Shown piece by piece: positions 41,177 through 53,227 of a DNA stretch of 64,000 bases (its first letter is position 1; each line of letters begins with the position of its first letter). The position numbers and the translations under genes are program-made. Source of the stretch: Acidimicrobiaceae bacterium (lineage in GTDB: Bacteria; Actinomycetota; Acidimicrobiia; Acidimicrobiales; RAAP-2); NCBI GenBank assembly GCA_003133685.1, contig PKYQ01000018.1:79105-143104 (forward strand), given 5' to 3'. Under the pieces are notes generated by a model. It worked only from the letters and a program-made list of their open reading frames with translations. It did no database searches and was not told where the DNA came from.

Positions 41177-42859
41177 TTAATGGTCCGGGTCGGTCGAGCT
41201 CTCGAAGAGTTCGACAGTGTGATCGTCGATCTCGTCGATGTACGTATTCAATTGTGCGAGGTACGGGGCACCCGACTCGTGGAATAGATGCGGTTCGATG
41301 CCGGCAAGCTTAATCGCGCTGCGCGCCGTGGTCACCGATCGAAAGGCGTTGCGACGAAGCGAATGACGGGTGACGGGATCGCTCGTCGAAGACGTCCGCC
41401 TATAGTTCTCCACGGCCACGCCGACCTGTTCGAGCTGCTGACGGGGCCGTAGCGACGGGGCGTGCAGCCACATCACGTAGTCGATTGCCAAGACGATCGA
41501 GGCACCGATCGCGGTGTCAACTATCCGAGGTCCAAACAGGTTTTGGTCGGGACCGAGCACGCCCACGAAGACGAAAATGATCGGCGTGAAGACCATGACG
41601 GTGAGCGCGTGGCTTCGTTGGGCCGCCCACGGTACCGCCGCGGCCATGGCGCAACACAGAATGATGAGCGAGACCTGTTGATTGCCCGCGATCGCCACGA
41701 GAGCGGCGATGCCGACGCCGGCGAGCGTCCCAATGACTCGTGACATTGCTCGACGCATCACCGGACCCAAATCCGGACGGAAGACGAACGCCACCGTCAT
41801 CGGCAACCAGTAGCCTCTTGGGCCGTCCAGCGCGTGCGCGATGATCGTCGCGACGACGACCGCACCGGCGAACAACAGCGCGAATCGCAATCGGTCGATC
41901 ATCGGTAACCGTTGGATGGTCGAACGAAAGGGCATCTCGCTCACGAGCGTCGTGCGCTCGGGGCAACGAAATGAGTCGGCGACGAGCCGACGGGACCGAG
42001 ACGCGAGCGTCATAGCGAACGTTGCGGCCAAGCCGTTCAACTGCGCAACCGCGTCCACGCACGAGCGCTCTCGAATCGTCACCGCTACCTCGCGCAGAGC
42101 CTCGGACACGACGACGTCCACGGCTTCCACCTTGCTCGTCAAGTACGAGACGAGTTCACCGATCTGCAGAACCACGACGAACACTTGGTGGATCGCCACG
42201 CCCTCTTCGTCCTTCGGCAGTTTCCTCGCGCCGACCACGTCTTGGGCGGCGTCCAGGATCACGACGGCGCGGCTGCGCGCGTGATTCAGTGCCTCGGTGC
42301 CGACAGCGTCCAGGAGTTGAGCGAGCGCCTGCATCGAATTCTCGAGACAGAGACGTTGGTCGGCTCGTCTGCTGCGACGATCGGTCAGGCTGGCGACCGA
42401 GTACACGAAGAGTCCGCCCACCATGAGACAGAACGCCGACTGCCAGACCCGTCCGGCAAAACCCAGTCCCCCGCCGAGGATGGCGCCCAACAAGAGGTAC
42501 ATACCCTGGGTCGCCCAGAGTGACGCCTCAATGAGTCCGGCGACAAAGGCGACGACGCCGAAGAGCACGACGAGTGACCACGGGGCGCTGACGTGATTGA
42601 CGAACAGCGCACCGAGGGCGAGCCCCGGACCTCCCGCAAGAGCGACGCCGAGCATTCTCGGAGATCGGTTGCGCCAGCGATCCGAACCGTCTTGACTGAC
42701 GCCCCAGAGTGCCCCGATGGCCACGAGCGTCCCGTACGCTCGCTGGCCGGTGATCAGGCCCACGACCAGGGGTGTCGCCAGACATAGGGCCGCTCGAGCG
42801 GAGAGTCGGGTTTGCGACGAGAGTTGCCAGCGTCGCATCGAACGGGCCGTGTGGTTCAC
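41177..42859 (-). CDS. FUSC family membrane protein
   Basis: paired TM bundles (GQRAYGTLVAIGALWGVSQDG; GYWLPMTVAFVFRPDLGPVMRRAMSRVIGTLAGVG). Confidence 0.85.
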   Translation of the reverse strand: MNHTARSMRRWQLSSQTRLSARAALCLATPLVVGLITGQRAYGTLVAIGALWGVSQDGSDRWRNRSPRMLGVALAGGPGLALGALFVNHVSAPWSLVVLFGVVAFVAGLIEASLWATQGMYLLLGAILGGGLGFAGRVWQSAFCLMVGGLFVYSVASLTDRRSRRADQRLCLENSMQALAQLLDAVGTEALNHARSRAVVILDAAQDVVGARKLPKDEEGVAIHQVFVVVLQIGELVSYLTSKVEAVDVVVSEALREVAVTIRERSCVDAVAQLNGLAATFAMTLASRSRRLVADSFRCPERTTLVSEMPFRSTIQRLPMIDRLRFALLFAGAVVVATIIAHALDGPRGYWLPMTVAFVFRPDLGPVMRRAMSRVIGTLAGVGIAALVAIAGNQQVSLIILCCAMAAAVPWAAQRSHALTVMVFTPIIFVFVGVLGPDQNLFGPRIVDTAIGASIVLAIDYVMWLHAPSLRPRQQLEQVGVAVENYRRTSSTSDPVTRHSLRRNAFRSVTTARSAIKLAGIEPHLFHESGAPYLAQLNTYIDEIDDHTVELFESSTDPDH

Positions 42860-42943: not shown

Positions 42944-45424
42944 TTACGACTGAGCCGTCATTGGGAGATCGACCGCGACGGTCAAACCCCCGCCCGGTGT
43001 GTCCTCAAAGAGGAGCCGCCCGCCCAACAGTTGAATGAATCCGGAGGCGACGGTCAAGTTGAGTCCCGCGTTGAGTTGAGCCCCCCGCAGTCGGTCAAAT
43101 GGTGCGAGTACGGCGTCACGCAGCGCGACCGGCATGCCCGGTCCTCGGTCCACCACGAGCAGTTGAACGTAGTCGCCGACGACGCCCACTTTGATGGTGA
43201 CCGGCTTATCGGCCGGTCCGAATCGACAAGCGTTGCTCACAATGTTGCCGATGACGCGCTGCAACAATATCGAGTCAGTGCGCAACGCCGGCAGATCACT
43301 CGGTACGTCGCACTCCACCATTCGGCCCCGGGTGTCAATGTTGTTGACCACGTTCGTCAATGCCGCATTCAGCAACACGGACTCCGGATGAACCGACACT
43401 TCGCCCGCCTCGAGGCGCCCGGCGTCAATGAGGTTGACCACGAGACGCGTGACTTGTCGCACTTGGGAATCGATGCCCGCGAGTAGGGCGTTCCTCTCGT
43501 CAAGCGAGCGGCGCTCATGGCTCCCGGCGAGCAAAGAGATATTGGCCCTCACCTTCTCAAGCGGTCCGAGTAGTTCCTTCGAAGCGGTTCTGAACAGGGC
43601 CAGTCGTAGTGACTCGGCTTCGGCGATCTCTTGGAGTTGCGTCGCGTCACGCGCGATGATCTGGCTCCGGAGTCCGGCGGCGACTCGGCGCGCGAAGGCG
43701 CTGACCAGTTGATTGTCCTGATCGCTCAGCGTCGCCCCAATCACGTACAGACGATGCTCGTCATCGATTTCGAATAATGAACCGGTCTCGAACACGTCGA
43801 TCGCTTCGCCACTCACGAGGTCACTGACCCACTGTCCATCTCGTTCGACAACCAGCGCCACACTCGAGGCCGCGAAGACGGTTCGCAGGGATTCGAGCAG
43901 CGGCTGGAGGTCTTCGTGCGAAGAGGCGACACTGGCAGCGACTCCAGCAAGAATTTGGGCCTCGGAGCGGGCGCGGTCGGCCTCGTGGGTACTCTGCGCG
44001 AAACGATTCACGATCACGCTCGCTGCCACCGCGAAGAGCAAGAATGCGACAATGGCGACGACGTCATCGGGGCGGGCGACCTCTAGCGTGTGCAACGGCT
44101 TCACGAAGTAGTAGTTCTCTAATCCCGAAGCGAAAATGGCGCTAAGCACACCGACGATCACACCGGCCCACGTGCCGAGGGCGAGGATCGCGACGAGGTA
44201 CACCAGGAACACCGTGGACGGGGAGAGGCTCGAGCGAATCTGACTCATGACGATCGTGAGTACCGGCAGAACCAGCGACATGACGATGGTCGCCAATATC
44301 TGGCGCGGCCACGTCACGCGCTTGGTCTGTCTTCTCTGGTGAACGTGGGGCGGCCGTTCTCCCCCCACGGCGATGATGTGCACGTCGAGGTCTCGTGCGC
44401 GACGAAGAACCTTTTCCACAACTCCATTCGCCGGTCGCCAGAAGGGACGTGGTCGACTCGCGCCGAGGACGATCTGGGTCCCGCGCTCACTACGGGCGAA
44501 GGAGACCAGTGCGGTGGCAATGTCGTCATCGACCACCTCTTGGAACTTGCCTTCGAACTCTTCGACGAGTTCGCGGGCCTCGGAGGTGTCTGTCGGGAGG
44601 TGATGCATCTCATCGGATTTCACGATGTGTACAGCGAAGAGCTCCGCCCCGGTCCGCGACGCGATGCGGGCGGCACGGCGTAGCAGGTCCGCGTCCGTGG
44701 CGGTGCCGGTGATCCCGACGATGAGCCGTTCCCGGGTCTCCCAGGTCTGATCAATCGCGTGATCGTCGAGGTAGCGCTGCAGCGAGTCTTCGACGCGATC
44801 GGCCAACCACAGCAGTGCCAACTCGCGAAGCGCGCTGAGGTTACCGACGCGGAAATAGTTTGACAACGAGGCGTCGATCTTGTCCGCGGCGTAGATGTTG
44901 CCGTGCGCCATCCGGCGACGAAGCGCCTCGGGCGTGACGTCGACGATCTCGATCTGTTCGGCTCGACGGACGATGGCGTCGGGAATGGTCTCTTGTTGGT
45001 GAATACCGGTGATCTTCTCGACCACGTCGTTCACCGACTCCAGATGTTGAATGTTGACGGTTGTGATCACGTCGATGCCGGCGTCGAGCAGGACGTCGAC
45101 GTCCTGCCAGCGTTTCTCGTGCGTGCTGCCGGTGACGTTGGTGTGCGCTAACTCATCGACCAATGCGACGGCCGGGTGACGCGCTAATACCGCGTCGAGG
45201 TCCATCTCTTCCAACATCGCGCCACGGTATTCACGTCTCGCGCGCGGAATCACTTCGAGGTCCCTGAGTTGGGCGTCGGTGAGTGCGCGACCGTGCGTCT
45301 CCACGTAGGCGACCACCACGTCGGTACCACGTTCTCGACGACGCCAACCTTCATCGAGCATGCGAAAGGTCTTGCCGACCCCGGGCGCCGACCCCAGATA
45401 GACCCGTAGGACTCCTCGCTGCAT
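42944..45424 (-). CDS. kdpD: KdpD-type sensor (KdpD N-terminal, USP and DUF4118 domains) with degenerate histidine-kinase region
   Basis: LRVYLGSAPGVGKTFRMLDEGWRRRERGTDVVVAYVETHGR; H-box position reads TASKELLGPL (no His), G2 box GLNLTV. Confidence 0.88.
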   Translation of the reverse strand: MQRGVLRVYLGSAPGVGKTFRMLDEGWRRRERGTDVVVAYVETHGRALTDAQLRDLEVIPRARREYRGAMLEEMDLDAVLARHPAVALVDELAHTNVTGSTHEKRWQDVDVLLDAGIDVITTVNIQHLESVNDVVEKITGIHQQETIPDAIVRRAEQIEIVDVTPEALRRRMAHGNIYAADKIDASLSNYFRVGNLSALRELALLWLADRVEDSLQRYLDDHAIDQTWETRERLIVGITGTATDADLLRRAARIASRTGAELFAVHIVKSDEMHHLPTDTSEARELVEEFEGKFQEVVDDDIATALVSFARSERGTQIVLGASRPRPFWRPANGVVEKVLRRARDLDVHIIAVGGERPPHVHQRRQTKRVTWPRQILATIVMSLVLPVLTIVMSQIRSSLSPSTVFLVYLVAILALGTWAGVIVGVLSAIFASGLENYYFVKPLHTLEVARPDDVVAIVAFLLFAVAASVIVNRFAQSTHEADRARSEAQILAGVAASVASSHEDLQPLLESLRTVFAASSVALVVERDGQWVSDLVSGEAIDVFETGSLFEIDDEHRLYVIGATLSDQDNQLVSAFARRVAAGLRSQIIARDATQLQEIAEAESLRLALFRTASKELLGPLEKVRANISLLAGSHERRSLDERNALLAGIDSQVRQVTRLVVNLIDAGRLEAGEVSVHPESVLLNAALTNVVNNIDTRGRMVECDVPSDLPALRTDSILLQRVIGNIVSNACRFGPADKPVTIKVGVVGDYVQLLVVDRGPGMPVALRDAVLAPFDRLRGAQLNAGLNLTVASGFIQLLGGRLLFEDTPGGGLTVAVDLPMTAQS

Positions 45425-45547: not shown

Positions 45548-46309
45548 TTACATCGCATGCAACTCGCCGACGAGGTACGCGGCGGCGACGTCGACCAGGG
45601 CCACGGCCACGATTCGCTGCTCCAACGTGACCGCCGCGCCCCGCGTTGGGGTCATCACGAATCGACCGACAACGCGGCTGCGCCATTTCGCCAGGATTTC
45701 CGCCTCGGGACCGGGAATGCCGATCTCCTTGGCGGGCCAACGCATTCCGACCAGTTCCACATCGCCGTTGGATTGGATTCGGGCGAGCGGCGGATCCGAA
45801 AGCACTCGGTCGAACCGACACGCGCGCAGCGACAGCAGTCGAATGAGTGAATCAGTCGTCTGGCTGATGATCTCCGTGACCGGCGCCGAGTTCGACGCGA
45901 GCACGGCCACGCCGTGAATCATCGCGACGTACGCCGTGGCGCTGTTCGCCTCCTGCCAATGACGGCGGCTGCGGGCCGCGAGCTCGGTCACGAGCACCCC
46001 GACGACGAAGATCGCGATGGTGGTCTCGAGGTCCGGTCGATGACTTACCGCAAATCGGTCGTAGGGACTGGTGAGAAAGAAATCGAACCAGAGCGCTGCC
46101 GACGCACTGGCCACGATGCCCGCGAGTCGAGGACCGATCACGGCAACGGCGGTGATGACGATCACCATCGTGAGGGCTGCCGCGGTGTTCGCGAAGGTGC
46201 CGCGGAAGGGAACGAGCACCGCCGCAACAACGATGGGCGCGAGGACCGCGGCGGCGACCGCCAGTCGATTGCGATAGAGAAGAACACGGCGTGTCATGGC
46301 GGCCCCCAT
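45548..46309 (-). CDS. stand-alone DUF4118 (KdpD-like sensor domain) protein without kinase module
   Basis: hydrophobic N-terminus with GPRLAGIVASASAALWFDFFLTSPYDRFAVSHRPDLETTIAIFVVGVLVTELAARSRR; ends with no HisKA/HATPase. Confidence 0.75.
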   Translation of the reverse strand: MGAAMTRRVLLYRNRLAVAAAVLAPIVVAAVLVPFRGTFANTAAALTMVIVITAVAVIGPRLAGIVASASAALWFDFFLTSPYDRFAVSHRPDLETTIAIFVVGVLVTELAARSRRHWQEANSATAYVAMIHGVAVLASNSAPVTEIISQTTDSLIRLLSLRACRFDRVLSDPPLARIQSNGDVELVGMRWPAKEIGIPGPEAEILAKWRSRVVGRFVMTPTRGAAVTLEQRIVAVALVDVAAAYLVGELHAM

Positions 46310-46393: not shown

Positions 46394-47020
46394 TCACTTC
46401 TCTAGTTTCGCGAGGCCCTCGTTCAATTGCAACACGTCGATGTAACTGGAACCCAAGAATCCCCACTGCGCCGGGTGCGTCTGTTGCCTGATGAGCGTAC
46501 GCAGTCGGGCCGGCGAGATCCCGGTGGCCTTGGACACCATCGGAATCTGAACCGTCGCGTCCAGCGCCGAGATATCGGGGTCGATGCCGCTGCCCGAGGT
46601 GGTCACCAGATCCGGCGTGGGGTCGACACCGAGCTTGTGCCAGTACGCAACGAGCGCCTTGGTGTCGGCGAGCAGGACCTTGGAACGGGGACCGAGGTTA
46701 GTCGCCCCGGACTCACCACTGACGCCATTGGCGACGAGGGGATTGTCTCCACCGGACACGTTGTCTTTGGGGTTGGCGGCGTAGGGTCCGGTGTCATCGG
46801 GGCGACCGTTGAAGACGCAACTACCCAGAGGGTTTCCCGGGCACTTGGTAGCGGCCCAGTTCTGGCCAATAAGCGTCGATCCGTTGGCCGTCAGTGAACC
46901 GTCGGCTTGGTGCTTGAACAGCAACTGAGACACGCCGATACCCGCGAAGGCGTAGACGAACCCGAAGAACACGAGACAGATGACTGCCAGAACGAGAGAG
47001 CGGCGAAGATGTACGAGCAT
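46394..47020 (-). CDS. kdpC: K+-transporting ATPase subunit C
   Basis: SQLLFKHQADGSLTANGSTLIGQNW, TSGSGIDPDISALDATVQIPMVSKATGISPARLRTLIRQQT. Confidence 0.95.
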   Translation of the reverse strand: MLVHLRRSLVLAVICLVFFGFVYAFAGIGVSQLLFKHQADGSLTANGSTLIGQNWAATKCPGNPLGSCVFNGRPDDTGPYAANPKDNVSGGDNPLVANGVSGESGATNLGPRSKVLLADTKALVAYWHKLGVDPTPDLVTTSGSGIDPDISALDATVQIPMVSKATGISPARLRTLIRQQTHPAQWGFLGSSYIDVLQLNEGLAKLEK

Positions 47021-47033
47021 GACGAACCTCCTT

Positions 47034-49094
47034 TTAGTAGGCGTGCAGCGCGACGAGCACGAGATCGATGAGCTTGATGAAGATGAACGGGATAATGATG
47101 CCGCCCACCCCGTAGATCAAGACGTTGCGCCTGAGAATCGCCGCCGAATTGGTGGCACGGAACTTGACTCCTCGAAGCGCCAAGGGGATGAGTGCCACGA
47201 TCACCAGGGCGTTGAAGATCACGGCCGATAGCACGGCGCTCTCGGGACTGTGCAGTCGCATGATGTTGAGCGAGTGCAGCTGGGGATAGGCCACGACGAA
47301 GAGCGCGGGAATGATCGCGAAGTACTTGGCGATGTCGTTGGCAATCGAGAAGGTCGTCAGTGACCCTCTGGTGATAAGCAGCTGCTTGCCAATCTCGACG
47401 ATGTCGAGCAGTTTCGTGGGGTTTGAATCCAGGTCCACCATGTTGCCCGCCTCTTTGGCGGCCGTCGTGCCGGTGTTCATGGCGACGCCGACGTCGGCCT
47501 GGGCCAGCGCCGGAGCGTCGTTGGTGCCGTCACCGGTCATGGCCACCAACTTGCCGCCCTCTTGCTCCTTCTTGATGAGCGCCATCTTGGCTTCGGGCGT
47601 GGCTTCGGCGAGGAAGTCGTCCACACCCGCCTCCTGCGCGATCGCGGCCGCGGTCAACGGGTTGTCGCCGGTGATCATGACGGTGCGAATACCCAACTGG
47701 CGCATCTCGTCGAACTTTTCGCGGATGCCCTGCTTCACGACGTCCTTCAATTCGATGACGCCCAGGATGACCGTGCCGTCGGCCACGACCAGCGGGGTCG
47801 ATCCGGCGCGCGACACCCGCTCGACGATCTCATCAAGATCGCTCGGCGGCGTGCCGCCCTGTTCACTTACCCAGCTCTTCACCGATTCACCCGCGCCCTT
47901 GCGGATCTGTCGCTCGCCCATGTCAAGCCCCGACATGCGGGTCGTTGCGGTGAAGGGCACGAAGACGTGATCGGCCTCGAGCGAACGCCCTCGGATGTCG
48001 AAGAGCTCCTTCGCGAGCACCACGATGGAGCGACCCTCGGGAGTCTCGTCCGCCAGCGACGCGAGCTGGGCCACGTCCGCGACCTCTTGCTCGCTGTGTC
48101 CACCCACCGGGTAGAAGTTGGACGCCATGCGGTTGCCCAACGTGATCGTGCCGGTCTTGTCCAGCAGCAGCGTCTGCACGTCCCCGGCCGCTTCGACGGC
48201 CCGTCCGCTCATTGCAAGCACGTTGCGCTGGACGAGACGGTCCATGCCCGCGATGCCGATGGCTGACAACAACGCGCCGATCGTCGTAGGGATGAGGCAG
48301 ACCAGGAGGGCCACCAGCACGACGACCGACACGGAACCGTGGGCGAAGTTGGCGAAGGGTACCAGAGTGACCACAACCGGGATGAAGACGATGGTCAGCA
48401 CGACGAGCAATATCGTGAGGGCGATCTCGTTGGGGGTCTTCTGGCGGTTGGCGCCCTCGACGAGCGAGATCATCCGGTCGATGAAGGTGTGGCCGCGCTC
48501 GGCCGTGATGCGCACCACGATTCGGTCCGACAGCACCTTCGTGCCCCCGGTGACGGCCGATCGGTCGCCTCCGGACTCGCGGATCACGGGCGCCGATTCG
48601 CCGGTTATCGCTGATTCGTCCACCGACGCGATCCCTTCGATGATGTCGCCATCGGAGGGAATGACATCGTTCGCCTCGCAGACCACCAGGTCACCCTTGG
48701 AGAGGGACGCGGCGGGAACCAGTTCTTCCGTGCCGTCCGGTCGCAGGCGACGCGCCTCGGTCTCCGAACGCATTTTGCGCAAGGTCTCCGCCTGCGCCTT
48801 GCCCCGGCCCTCGGCCATGGCCTCGGCGAAATTAGCGAAGATCACCGTCAGGAAGAGCCAGATTGTGATGGACCAAGTGAAAGTGCTGGGGTGGGCAAAC
48901 GCCTCGAAGAGTGAGATGACCGAGCCGACCAGCACGACGAACATCACGGGATTCTTGACCTGCAACCTCGGATCGAGCTTGGTGAGCGAGTCCTTCAACG
49001 CCTGGCGCAGGATCGGCCCGTCAAAGAGTCCCCGGGCCTGGGCCACGCCGTGGGCGCCCGGCTCAGCGGTTGGCTGATTCATAACAGTGGTCAT
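47034..49094 (-). CDS. kdpB: K+-transporting ATPase subunit B
   Basis: P-type ATPase [58 protein letters not shown]. Confidence 0.97.
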
Positions 49095-50782
49095 TAGAAG
49101 AACCTCAAGTGGCTAAGTTGCTCGACGATTGGGCCGAGGGAGACGGCGGGGAAGAACGTCAGTCCGCCGATGATCAGGATCACACCGATCGTGAGACCGA
49201 CGAACATCCCGTTATCGGTACGGAACGTACCGAGGCTCTCGGGCACAACATCCTTCGCCGCCAGGACCCCACCCAGCGCGAGCGCCGGAATCATGATGCC
49301 GAAGCGACCTATCAACATGTCAATTCCGCCGATAATGTTGTAGAAGGGCGTGTTACCGGTGAGGCCGGCCATGGCCGAGCCATTGTTGTTTCCCTGAGAG
49401 GTGAGGCCGTAGAGGATCTCGCTAAAACCATGGGGCCCGGCATTGAGAGGTCCCGCGCGCCCTTCGGCCAGAGAGACCGCCAGCGCCGTGAGCACGAGCA
49501 CTGTAATGGGCATAACGAGGGCCCCAAGGCCCGCGAGTTTGATCTCTCTCGCCTGGATCTTCTTACCCAGAAACTCAGGCGTGCGCCCGATCATCAATCC
49601 GCCGATGAACACGGCGATGATCGCGTAAATGAGAAGTGTATAGAGCCCCGAGCCCGTGCCACCCGGCGTCACTTCGCCGAGCATCATGCCCGTCAAGGGG
49701 CCGAAGCCGCCCATCGGGTTGTACGAATCGGTTGCACTGTCGACGGCACCATCGGAGGTCTGAGTCATAGACACGTTGAACAGGGCGCTGGTGGTGTCGC
49801 CGAAGCGAACCTCTTTGCCCTCCATGTTGCCCACGGGCGAGTACACGTGCGCCGCGGCGACGGCCGAGTTGTTCTGGTGCTCAGCGTTGGCGCTGAAGCC
49901 CACCCACACCCCGAAAATGATCACCATGACCGCCAGCAGAGCAACACCATGGCGGATACTCCCCACCATCTTGCCGAAGGTGTAGGTGAGGGCGAACGGG
50001 ATGGACAGGGTGAGCCAGATGTAGAGCAGGTTGGTCAACCCTGTTGGGTTCTCCAAGGGGTGGGCCAAATCGACGTTGAAGAACCCGCCGCCGTTGGTTC
50101 CCAGCTGCATTATGGAGCCCATAAATCCGGCCGGGCCACGGGCGATGGTCTGAGTGACGCCGTTCAAAGCGTCGTGGAAAGTCGTGGTTCCAGCTAGGGT
50201 GTCCACCGCGCCCTGGCCGACGAGCACGATGCCGGCGACGAAGGAGATCGGTAACAAGACGTAGAACAGGCAGCGCGTTATGTCGACCCAGAAGTTGCCG
50301 ATGGTGGGCGACTTACGACGCGAGAAGCCTCGAACCAGCACCATGGCGGCCGAGATACCCACAGCCGCACTGACGAACTGCTGGACGGTGAGGGCCCCCA
50401 TCTGGGAGAAGTACGACATCGACGTCTCGCCGCCGTAGTTCTGCCAGTTGGTATTGGTCACGAAAGACGTCGCCGTGTTGAAACTCAACGCCGGTCCGAC
50501 AGCGCCCAAGTGCTGTGGATTCAAGGGCAACGAGCCCTGAATCCGAAGAATCACGTAGGTGAAGGCGATCGACACGGCCGAGAAAATGATCATCGCACCG
50601 GCGTAGCGCTTCCACGTCTGTTCTTGTTCGGGGCTCGTGCCGAGCATTCGGTAGATCGGGCGCTCGATGAAGCCGAGGAAATGCACGCGGCCTTCGAAGA
50701 CGGCCGCCATGTACGAGCCGAGGTAGCGCCAGGCCAGGCCCAGCGTCACCACGAGGGCGAGGATGGTGAGGAAGAAACCCAT
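49094..50782 (-). CDS. kdpA: K+-transporting ATPase subunit A
   Basis: KdpA features [65 protein letters not shown]. Confidence 0.97.
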
Positions 50783-50872
50783 TTAGAACTTCTCCGGCTT
50801 GAACATGGCGTAGCCGACGTAAACGAACATCACGACGGCGACGCAAAAGAGAATGATCTGGGAAAAACTCAT
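50783..50872 (-). CDS. kdpF: KdpF small subunit (29 aa), absent from the supplied ORF track
   Basis: translation MSFSQIILFCVAVVMFVYVGYAMFKPEKF, immediately upstream of kdpA; KdpF-like C-terminus. Confidence 0.85.
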   Translation of the reverse strand: MSFSQIILFCVAVVMFVYVGYAMFKPEKF

Positions 50873-50952
50873 ACGCGGTCCAACGCCCAAATGAGTCCGA
50901 GCATCGCCGCGGTGAACCCAATAACGCCTAATGCTGTGAATAGATCTGCCAT
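50869..50952 (-). CDS. 27-aa membrane peptide MADLFTALGVIGFTAAMLGLIWALDRV, first gene of the kdp operon
   Basis: ATG..TGA with 4-bp ATGA overlap to kdpF; one hydrophobic helix. Confidence 0.65.
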   Translation of the reverse strand: MADLFTALGVIGFTAAMLGLIWALDRV

Positions 50953-50975
50953 GACTCCAGTGTCATCGGCGCGTC

Positions 50976-51012
50976 CTTAATCCAATCTTAAAAACGAACT
51001 TGGCGTCTTAAT
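50976..51012. promoter_or_regulatory. three CTTAA(T/A) direct repeats in the kdp / sensor-kinase divergent intergenic region (candidate KdpE sites)
   Basis: CTTAAT at 50976, CTTAAA at 50987, CTTAAT at 51007: offsets of 11 and 20 bp, same helical face. Confidence 0.4.
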
Positions 51013-51068
51013 AATCTCTTTATTTTGCCTCGCAAAAGGCGAATCGGGCGCTGGACAATACTGAGACG

Positions 51069-52538
51069 ATGCGCAAACATCTCGTCGGATCGGTCGTCGG
51101 AGTGGCGAGTGTCCTCATACTCGGATTCGCGATGCTGCCCCTTCGTTCGCACATCAGCGTGTCGACCGCGGCGCTGATCCTCGTCGTACCGGTCGTGGTC
51201 GGATCCGCTATCGGGGGAATACGAGCCGGAATTGCCAGCGTGATCGCCGGGTTCCTCGTCTACGACTACGGCTACATACCGCCCTACAAGACACTCGATG
51301 TCGGCACGCCACAGAACTGGACCGCCCTCGCCGTCTACGTCATCGTCATGTTGGCGATCGCGAGCGTCGTGGCGAGCCTGGATTCATCGAGAATCGAGGC
51401 GAAGCGCGGCGCCGAGGCGGCGCACCGCCTCTCAGAACTCTCCGAACACTTGGTCGGCGATCGCCCCGTCGACGACCTGCTCGAGACCATCGTGTCGGCG
51501 GTCCACGTCGTCTTCGAGATCCCCGGTGTCTCGCTTCTGGTCCTCGACGAGGGGCTCTTGAAGGTTGTGGCTTCCGCGGGCGATCCGCTCTCCGAAGAGG
51601 AACTCGCACAACTCGGACCACACTCGGGACAGCCAATCAGCGTTGGCACGGACACCGAATCGTCCGGAGAACTACGCACAATCGCGCTTTCGGCGTCCGG
51701 TCACGCGGTCGGTATCCTGGCGCTTCGCGGTCTACCAACCTCAAAGAACGATCGCGCCGTCCTCACCACGTTTGCCAACGACGCGGCGTTGGCGTTAGAG
51801 CGCGCGCAACTACGCGAGCAAGCTCTGCGCTCGAAACTCCTTGAAGAGGTTGACCGCTTTCGCCAGAGTTTGATGGGCGCAGTGTCCCACGACCTTCGAA
51901 CTCCTCTCGCGACCATCAAAGTCGCCTCTTCGACACTGGCGAACCGGTCCGCCTCGCTCTCGAGGGAGGAACTGGCCGAGCTCTACAGGCTCATCGAGGT
52001 CGAGTCGGATCGTCTCACGCGATTGGTTTCAAATCTCCTAGACATCACGCGCATCGAAGCCGGAGTCTTCACCGTCCACCCGACACCGACATCCATCCGA
52101 GAGTTGGTGCGCGAAGCGGTGAATGCAATGGAACCGACCTTGAGCACTCACCGCGTCGATTCGATCGTTCCGATGAACTTGCCAGCGGTGAACGTCGACC
52201 CGCTCTTGATCGGCCAAGTGTTGATCAATCTCCTCGACAACGCGATTCGACACTCGCCCGTTGACGGCGTCATCACCGTCGAAGCGCGACGAGATCGCAA
52301 CCAGACGATTCTCTCGGTCACCGATCAAGGACCTGGCATCGCGCCCAACAAGCGACAGAAGGTCTTCGAACGATTCGCACAACTCGACACCGGGGGCCGA
52401 GCGGGACTCGGCCTCACGATCGCCAAGACCTTCGTCGAAGCCCACGGAGAGGAGATTTGGTACGAGGATGCCCCGAACCACGGCGCACGATTCGTCTTCA
52501 CCCTCCCGGTGGCTGACGAGACCACGACGCTACGGTAA
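51069..52538 (+). CDS. sensor histidine kinase (DUF4118-GAF-HisKA-HATPase)
   Basis: intact H-box GAVSHDLRTPLATIK; NLLDNAIRHSP; DQGPGI; GLGLTIAKTFVEAHG. Confidence 0.93.
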   Translation: MRKHLVGSVVGVASVLILGFAMLPLRSHISVSTAALILVVPVVVGSAIGGIRAGIASVIAGFLVYDYGYIPPYKTLDVGTPQNWTALAVYVIVMLAIASVVASLDSSRIEAKRGAEAAHRLSELSEHLVGDRPVDDLLETIVSAVHVVFEIPGVSLLVLDEGLLKVVASAGDPLSEEELAQLGPHSGQPISVGTDTESSGELRTIALSASGHAVGILALRGLPTSKNDRAVLTTFANDAALALERAQLREQALRSKLLEEVDRFRQSLMGAVSHDLRTPLATIKVASSTLANRSASLSREELAELYRLIEVESDRLTRLVSNLLDITRIEAGVFTVHPTPTSIRELVREAVNAMEPTLSTHRVDSIVPMNLPAVNVDPLLIGQVLINLLDNAIRHSPVDGVITVEARRDRNQTILSVTDQGPGIAPNKRQKVFERFAQLDTGGRAGLGLTIAKTFVEAHGEEIWYEDAPNHGARFVFTLPVADETTTLR

Positions 52539-52543
52539 ACGTT

Positions 52544-53227
52544 ATGGCAAAGGTTCTGGTGATCGACGACGACCCATCACTCAATCGAGCGTTACGCCTG
52601 GGCCTTCAGGCCGGCGGCCACGACGTCACGACCGCCTCAACCGGCGAACACGGCATCTCCCAAACCGCGCTCACCGCGCCGGACGTGGTCGTATTGGACT
52701 TGGGACTGCCCGACATGGACGGTATCGAGGTGTGTCGCACTATTCGTGGGTGGAGCGACGTACCCATCATCATCCTCTCGGCGATCGGCGCCGAGAATCG
52801 CAAAATCACTGCGCTCGACGCCGGGGCGAACGACTACGTGACCAAGCCCTTCAGCATGCCCGAACTCGAGGCGCGGATACGGGTCGTCACTCGTGGTCGT
52901 GGCCTCGACCATGACGATCCCGCCGAGACCACCTTGACCTGTGGCACGCTCGAACTTGATCTAGTCCATCACGACGTGACGCGCGACGGTGTCAATGTCG
53001 CCCTGACCACCAAGGAGTTCGAGGTCCTGGCATTCCTCGCTCGCCACTCGGGAAAGACGTGCACGCATCAGATGATTCTCAGTGCCGTCTGGGGTAGCGG
53101 CTACGGTGCCGAAGCGCAGTACGTGCACGCCTACGTCCACCGGTTGCGCCAGAAGTTGAACGACGAGTCGGCCGAACTCATCAACACGATCACGGGCGTC
53201 GGCTATTCCCTCAACTGCGCCGACTGA
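52544..53227 (+). CDS. kdpE: OmpR-family response regulator, KdpE-like
   Basis: VIDDDPSLNRALRLGLQAGG, VVLDLGLPDMDGIEV, DYVTKPFSMPELEAR, C-terminal winged helix TTKEFEVLAFLARHSGKTCTHQMILSAVWG. Confidence 0.9.
   Translation: MAKVLVIDDDPSLNRALRLGLQAGGHDVTTASTGEHGISQTALTAPDVVVLDLGLPDMDGIEVCRTIRGWSDVPIIILSAIGAENRKITALDAGANDYVTKPFSMPELEARIRVVTRGRGLDHDDPAETTLTCGTLELDLVHHDVTRDGVNVALTTKEFEVLAFLARHSGKTCTHQMILSAVWGSGYGAEAQYVHAYVHRLRQKLNDESAELINTITGVGYSLNCAD

Follow-up and report, generated by a model that had tools for sequence, protein, structure and literature searches.

The KdpD encoded at the end of a kdpFABC operon of an Acidimicrobiaceae bacterium has lost the phospho-acceptor histidine of its histidine kinase (HK) module, and its sequence supports the conclusion that it cannot be a canonical autophosphorylating histidine kinase. 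It is probably a serine-kinase-only regulator of KdpFABC whose DHp-CA module would serve as a scaffold, with transcription left to the divergently encoded kinase and its KdpE. This reading is drawn from the loss of HK residues, the retention of serine-kinase residues, the gene arrangement and the pattern of selection, all seen in the window (the whole stretch of 64,000 nucleotides analysed) and in its relatives. More generally, we lean towards reciprocal point decay having parted the tandem KdpD: operon-linked proteins would have become membrane-bound regulators of the pump that act by the serine kinase only and retain the pseudo-HK as a structure, and unlinked KdpD-KdpE pairs HK-only systems.

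KdpD has long been regarded as a histidine kinase only. In 2024 a serine kinase acting on KdpB was reported with the E. coli and Deinococcus proteins (PMC11018627). The activity belongs to the N-terminal domain of KdpD, an atypical serine kinase by which, at high K+, S162 of KdpB is phosphorylated and the pump inhibited (Silberberg et al. 2024, PMC11018627). E. coli KdpD carrying H673A, or devoid of DHpCA, still phosphorylates KdpB, and changes in Walker A, Walker B and W39/R190 abolish or nearly abolish the serine-kinase activity (PMC11018627).

The N-terminal KdpD, USP and DUF4118 domains recognised in the first-pass annotation were all found by Pfam, together with HATPase_c (Table 1); HisKA is recognisable and stays below the threshold (18.4 bits against a cut-off of 26.9). 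The Lys claimed at the phospho-acceptor site is indeed there: Lys616 falls, in an ungapped alignment, on E. coli H673 (LLAALSHDLRTPLT / LFRTASKELLGPLE), the column is His in 69/69 proteobacterial KdpDs, and an independent alignment to the solved E. coli KdpD core 6lgq gives the same placement. The neighbouring E617 is retained, and the Arg at +3 and the Thr at +4 of the H-box are replaced by Leu619 and Gly620. In the ATP-binding domain the N box (VSNACRF), the G1 box (DRGPGM) and the F region are retained and the G2 box reads AGLNLTV (GLNL), in keeping with the earlier description of a degraded G2 beside intact N and G1 boxes. In the AlphaFold2 model, which has a fair mean per-residue confidence (77.5) but a pTM of 0.35, too low for the domain arrangement to be used, DHp-CA adopts an ordinary DHp-CA fold, and Foldseek matches this part to histidine kinases, including the pseudokinase DivL. 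A sequencing or assembly error behind Lys616 was considered and excluded, because four further genomes share the Lys and other replacements occur across the clade.

Table 1. Features of the kdp locus in the window (positions counted from the first letter of the window)
Feature	Positions	Strand	Basis or remark
kdpD, 826 aa, full-length architecture, non-canonical (pseudo) histidine kinase module	42944..45424	-	domain search, alignments
N-terminal KdpD domain, predicted atypical serine kinase, residues 2-211	44792..45421	-	PF02702 E 7e-94; catalytic residues kept; matches 2r8r
Usp domain, residues 232-343	44396..44731	-	Pfam PF00582
DUF4118 four-helix membrane domain, residues 381-484	43973..44284	-	Pfam PF13493; AlphaFold2 helices
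DHp-CA module without phospho-acceptor, residues 600-823	42956..43627	-	HATPase_c 61 bits; predicted fold kept
Lys616 codon AAG, position of E. coli KdpD His673	43577..43579	-	alignments
Gly620 codon, position of the phosphatase Thr (E. coli T677)	43565..43567	-	alignment
DUF4118 protein between kdpC and kdpD, probably with a GAF-like C-terminal part, no kinase domain	45548..46309	-	Pfam, synteny
kdpC	46394..47020	-	Pfam KdpC E 4e-39
kdpB, target motif DESAITGES (E. coli S162)	47034..49094	-	alignment
kdpA	49094..50782	-	
kdpF small ORF, 29 aa, MSFSQIILFCVAVVMFVYVGYAMFKPEKF	50783..50872	-	conserved in relatives
27-aa hydrophobic small ORF, MADLFTALGVIGFTAAMLGLIWALDRV, overlapping the kdpF start	50869..50952	-	conserved in relatives
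Candidate KdpE operator, two pairs of 11-bp direct repeats	50975..51027		half-sites 50975, 50986, 51006, 51017
Divergent histidine kinase, DUF4118-GAF-HisKA-HATPase_c, catalytically complete by motifs	51069..52538	+	
KdpE-type response regulator	52544..53227	+	

The N-terminal domain of the same protein, which matches the solved structure 2r8r, carries Walker A (GSAPGVGKTF) and Walker B (VDELAHTN) motifs, and every residue defined by mutagenesis (G36, K37, T38, the aromatic residue 39, D109, E110 and R190 in E. coli numbering) is kept; at position 39 Phe stands for E. coli Trp39, and most relatives have Tyr or Phe. The same residues are kept in every relative with a degenerate HK and a complete N-terminus, and the KdpB motif DESAITGES, with the target serine of TGES, is present in 67/67 readable copies. 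Module HMMs built from an independent set, the proteobacterial KdpDs, give the window KdpD 282 bits for the serine-kinase domain, a normal score, and 117 for the HK module; full-length separate HKs in such operons score 190-214 in nearly all cases. The first interpretation was right about the loss of the histidine kinase and the intact divergent kinase, and it overlooked the N-terminal serine kinase for KdpB, the part that selection preserves.

The operon runs on the minus strand in the order kdpF, kdpA, kdpB, kdpC, a DUF4118 protein and kdpD as the last gene. No KdpE lies next to this kdpD; KdpE sits with the divergent HK, the intactness of which, as first claimed, is confirmed by the presence of all its boxes (SHDLRTPL, NLLDNA, DQGPGI, FERF and GLGL). 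The DUF4118 protein between kdpC and kdpD is kept in most operons of the window type, and together with KdpD and the HK it brings the number of DUF4118 proteins in the locus to three. A YccS/YhfK-like membrane protein (41177..42859, minus strand) adjoins kdpD and is conserved in the neighbourhoods of close relatives. The 11-bp direct repeats in the divergent promoter region contain TCTTNA and are conserved across the genus. The paired repeat occurs in the intergenic regions of 27/37 relatives versus about 1% in shuffles, and paired direct repeats are what an operator of the OmpR family is expected to look like. A second kdp locus of the window's genome (L038) encodes the HK apart from a short KdpD/Usp chain, together with KdpE.

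The sample of KdpD loci covers about 75 genomes of the genus, with outgroups from the order and the phylum. Among named relatives, an Acidimicrobiaceae MAG from a peat bog stands closest (93%). Conservation of the His-to-Lys change in close relatives, proposed earlier as a check, was found in four (76-93% identical) and in one more distant relative, a fifth close relative (89%) having Asn. Loss of the His or of its surrounding residues recurs in about 40 relatives of this Acidimicrobiaceae genus of peat-dwelling Actinomycetota: operon-type KdpDs have K, N, S, Y, R, T or A at the His position, others of this type keep H but have lost the +4 Thr, the F box or G2, and in several the whole core is eroded. 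In the operon KdpDs of L045 and L166 Tyr replaces the phospho-accepting His (SYDLREPL), as it does in DivL. The residue at this site has changed at least 12 times according to a tree from which the HK columns were left out. When the HK was scored as sound only with His, D/E, T/S/N at +4 and an HMM score of at least 130, 44/71 complete KdpDs failed, 26 without His and 18 with it; the latter fail only on the +4 residue or the score, and some of their HK modules may be active. Within the window clade dN/dS (NG86) lies at 0.04-0.06 in the serine kinase and at 0.10-0.14 in the HK module; in the most eroded clades the HK module reaches 0.31-0.38. The value for the window clade indicates that its HK module is constrained and therefore no pseudogene; this constraint on DHp-CA could reflect some undiscovered function.

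The two kinases decay in opposite settings. KdpDs that are paired with KdpE at a distance from the pump retain the HK. Among the 67 of 71 complete KdpDs with a known neighbour, the HK test was passed by 25/29 with an adjacent KdpE versus 2/38 without one (Fisher P 4e-12, which, as all P values given here, ignores shared ancestry); a tree-aware test of the same association found 3-6 independent pairs and was not significant. At three loci (L045, L165 and L166) a KdpE-like gene still adjoins a KdpD whose HK is dead or dying. On the other side, the serine-kinase residues are kept in 59/59 KdpDs with kdpC just upstream, even where the HK is dead, and are lost in 5 of the 14 others (P 1e-4). In these five (L046, L058, L070, L073 and L182) GKT has become GTT and/or DE has become DD; the HK is intact, KdpE is adjacent and they never stand in a visible kdpABC operon, which for L058 and L182 was judged on a short stretch because the contig ends 416-678 bases upstream. 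kdpB was not detectable in two of the five genomes (G048 and G104). All five losers fall among the 27 HK-sound proteins (hypergeometric P about 0.006), and loss of both kinases was seen in 0/71 complete KdpDs. In two genomes, G031 and G103, an operon KdpD whose HK fails coexists with an unlinked KdpD-KdpE whose HK is sound; the unlinked copy lacks some serine-kinase residues in G031 and merely has a lower score in G103. Elsewhere in the phylum, nearly all of 47 KdpDs have both modules sound. The two exceptions show one loss of each kind: in L254/L257, a second kdp operon that lacks KdpE, the HK is dead and the serine kinase intact, and the second KdpD of L247 has E110D and an intact HK. The convergent KdpD of L257 (9101..11707, minus strand), from another actinomycete, is an independent case of a destroyed HK beside an intact serine kinase.

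From these patterns we infer a scheme of biochemical activities, K+ sensing, operator function and historical order. When K+ is plentiful, the N-terminal domain of the window KdpD would phosphorylate the TGES serine of KdpB and turn the pump off. The membrane, GAF and DHp-CA parts would form a K+-sensing, dimerising scaffold for the serine kinase, with no HK or phosphatase role, and the divergent DUF4118-GAF HK and KdpE would govern kdpFABC transcription through the repeats of the shared promoter. Control by c-di-AMP, as shown for the short Deinococcus KdpD, was also considered; the lack of any hit to the known diadenylate cyclase family (PF02457) in 100 genomes of the genus, against 11/14 positive control genomes, makes it unlikely. 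This absence fits K+ sensing through the kept membrane/GAF part. The split kdp locus L038 is present although no diadenylate cyclase was detected in the window's genome.

As to the history, a kdpABC operon with its own HK-KdpE may have gained a full-length KdpD-KdpE pair behind it, after which the acquired KdpE would have been lost and the redundant kinase core would have decayed while selection held the serine kinase. KdpB of the window-type operons groups with split-type kdp operons (100*), apart from most canonical KdpD-KdpE operons of the order. In the tree of the KdpD N-terminal domain the operon KdpDs are not placed with the short split-type chains; the deep branches of this tree, from which the replacement history is drawn, are weakly supported. 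Two loci (L164 and L170) have a KdpD-KdpE pair judged to be working behind kdpABC plus a divergent HK-KdpE, and L045, L165 and L166 have a degenerate KdpD with a diverged KdpE; it is therefore suggested that a KdpD-KdpE pair joined a pump that already had an HK-KdpE, and that redundant parts then decayed.

Other explanations of the H-less module have to be weighed against the serine-kinase-only reading. DHp-CA could act as a DivL-like pseudokinase which binds KdpE~P or, as a heterodimer, the 51069 kinase and tunes transcription, besides or instead of any serine-kinase role. DivL, with Tyr for His, ranks second among the sequence matches of solved structure and is one of the best matches by fold, the N, G1 and F boxes are retained, two relatives carry Tyr at the phospho-acceptor position and purifying selection acts on the HK module in the window clade (dN/dS 0.10-0.14). 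Such a role is nevertheless unlikely: the +3 Arg, which docks the response regulator in DivL (R553), is Leu619, no KdpE partner adjoins the window kdpD, and related operons keep the gene with its whole kinase core eroded (L060, L061, L063, L184-L186 and L188-L190). The first-pass annotation had proposed a pseudokinase or a phosphatase-only sensor. The former holds in so far as canonical autophosphorylation is concerned; the latter, a sensor acting on KdpE, could appeal to the retained fold and E617 and is very improbable, because HisKA phosphatase activity requires the Thr/Asn of H-E/D-x-x-T/N (Willett & Kirby, PMC3510030) and that residue is Gly620 here, being gone also in most relatives of the same operon type.

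It may also be asked whether kdpD is simply decaying towards a pseudogene with no remaining role. An HK module eroded or missing in several relatives, with a relaxed dN/dS of 0.31-0.38 in some, would agree with that, but few parts are as constrained as the serine-kinase domain (0.04-0.06), its catalytic residues are fully kept and the frame is open in nearly all relatives, so that we give decay hardly any credence. Just as hard to credit is an active HK using another residue, for example another His of the DHp helix. The search for a conserved His elsewhere in this helix, by which the earlier claim could be overturned, found none near position 616 on helix 1, where the alignment to E. coli and to solved HKs is ungapped and the 6lgq alignment upholds the placement.

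If the reading of reciprocal decay is true, these proteins separate the functions of the bifunctional kinase described in 2024 in a natural series that runs from intact to fully eroded, and the series is suited to asking if the membrane/GAF sensor controls the serine kinase without HK output. A lineage which keeps the serine kinase while the HK goes, mirrored by the opposite loss away from the pump, provides independent evidence from evolution that the serine kinase is important to the pump. Domain-based annotation is likely to label all such KdpDs sensor histidine kinases. KdpDs that are split or truncated have already been described, as have species whose HK is separate (PMC11018627); beside them, a full-length KdpD inactivated by point changes, with mirror-image paralogues, is a new form. 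The main text of that paper mentions neither 'degenerate' nor Actinomycetota, and a literature search on KdpD as a 'pseudokinase', of incomplete coverage, found no paper on the subject.

The window protein has its domains in the same order as E. coli KdpD (PMC11018627) and agrees with it in every serine-kinase residue tested and in the target serine of KdpB; it differs in the replaced His, +3 Arg and +4 Thr, the altered G2 and the lack of an adjacent KdpE. Unlike that tandem kinase, it would be a full-length, membrane-bound protein with one expected kinase activity. Split Kdp regulators, known from Chloroflexota, Acidobacteriota, Deinococcus and others, pair a short KdpD/Usp serine kinase with a TM/GAF/DHpCA HK (PMC11018627). 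The window system resembles them in having serine kinase and HK on separate chains with KdpE and in the relationship of its KdpB to those operons, whereas its KdpD keeps the Usp, membrane, GAF-like and DHp-CA parts, its HK is disabled by point changes and its genus has no detected diadenylate cyclase (100 genomes). The N-terminal KdpD-Usp part also matches NCBIfam NF038185, 'KdpD-like non-kinase potassium sensor', with 356 bits, but this is below the family cut-off of 550, and the family model of 373 aa has no membrane or transmitter domains. As in Caulobacter DivL (PMC4211667), a HisKA/CA fold persists with the phospho-acceptor replaced; DivL, however, retains the Arg that docks the response regulator and reads DivK~P, while the window KdpD has Leu there and its retained output would be an unrelated N-terminal serine kinase.
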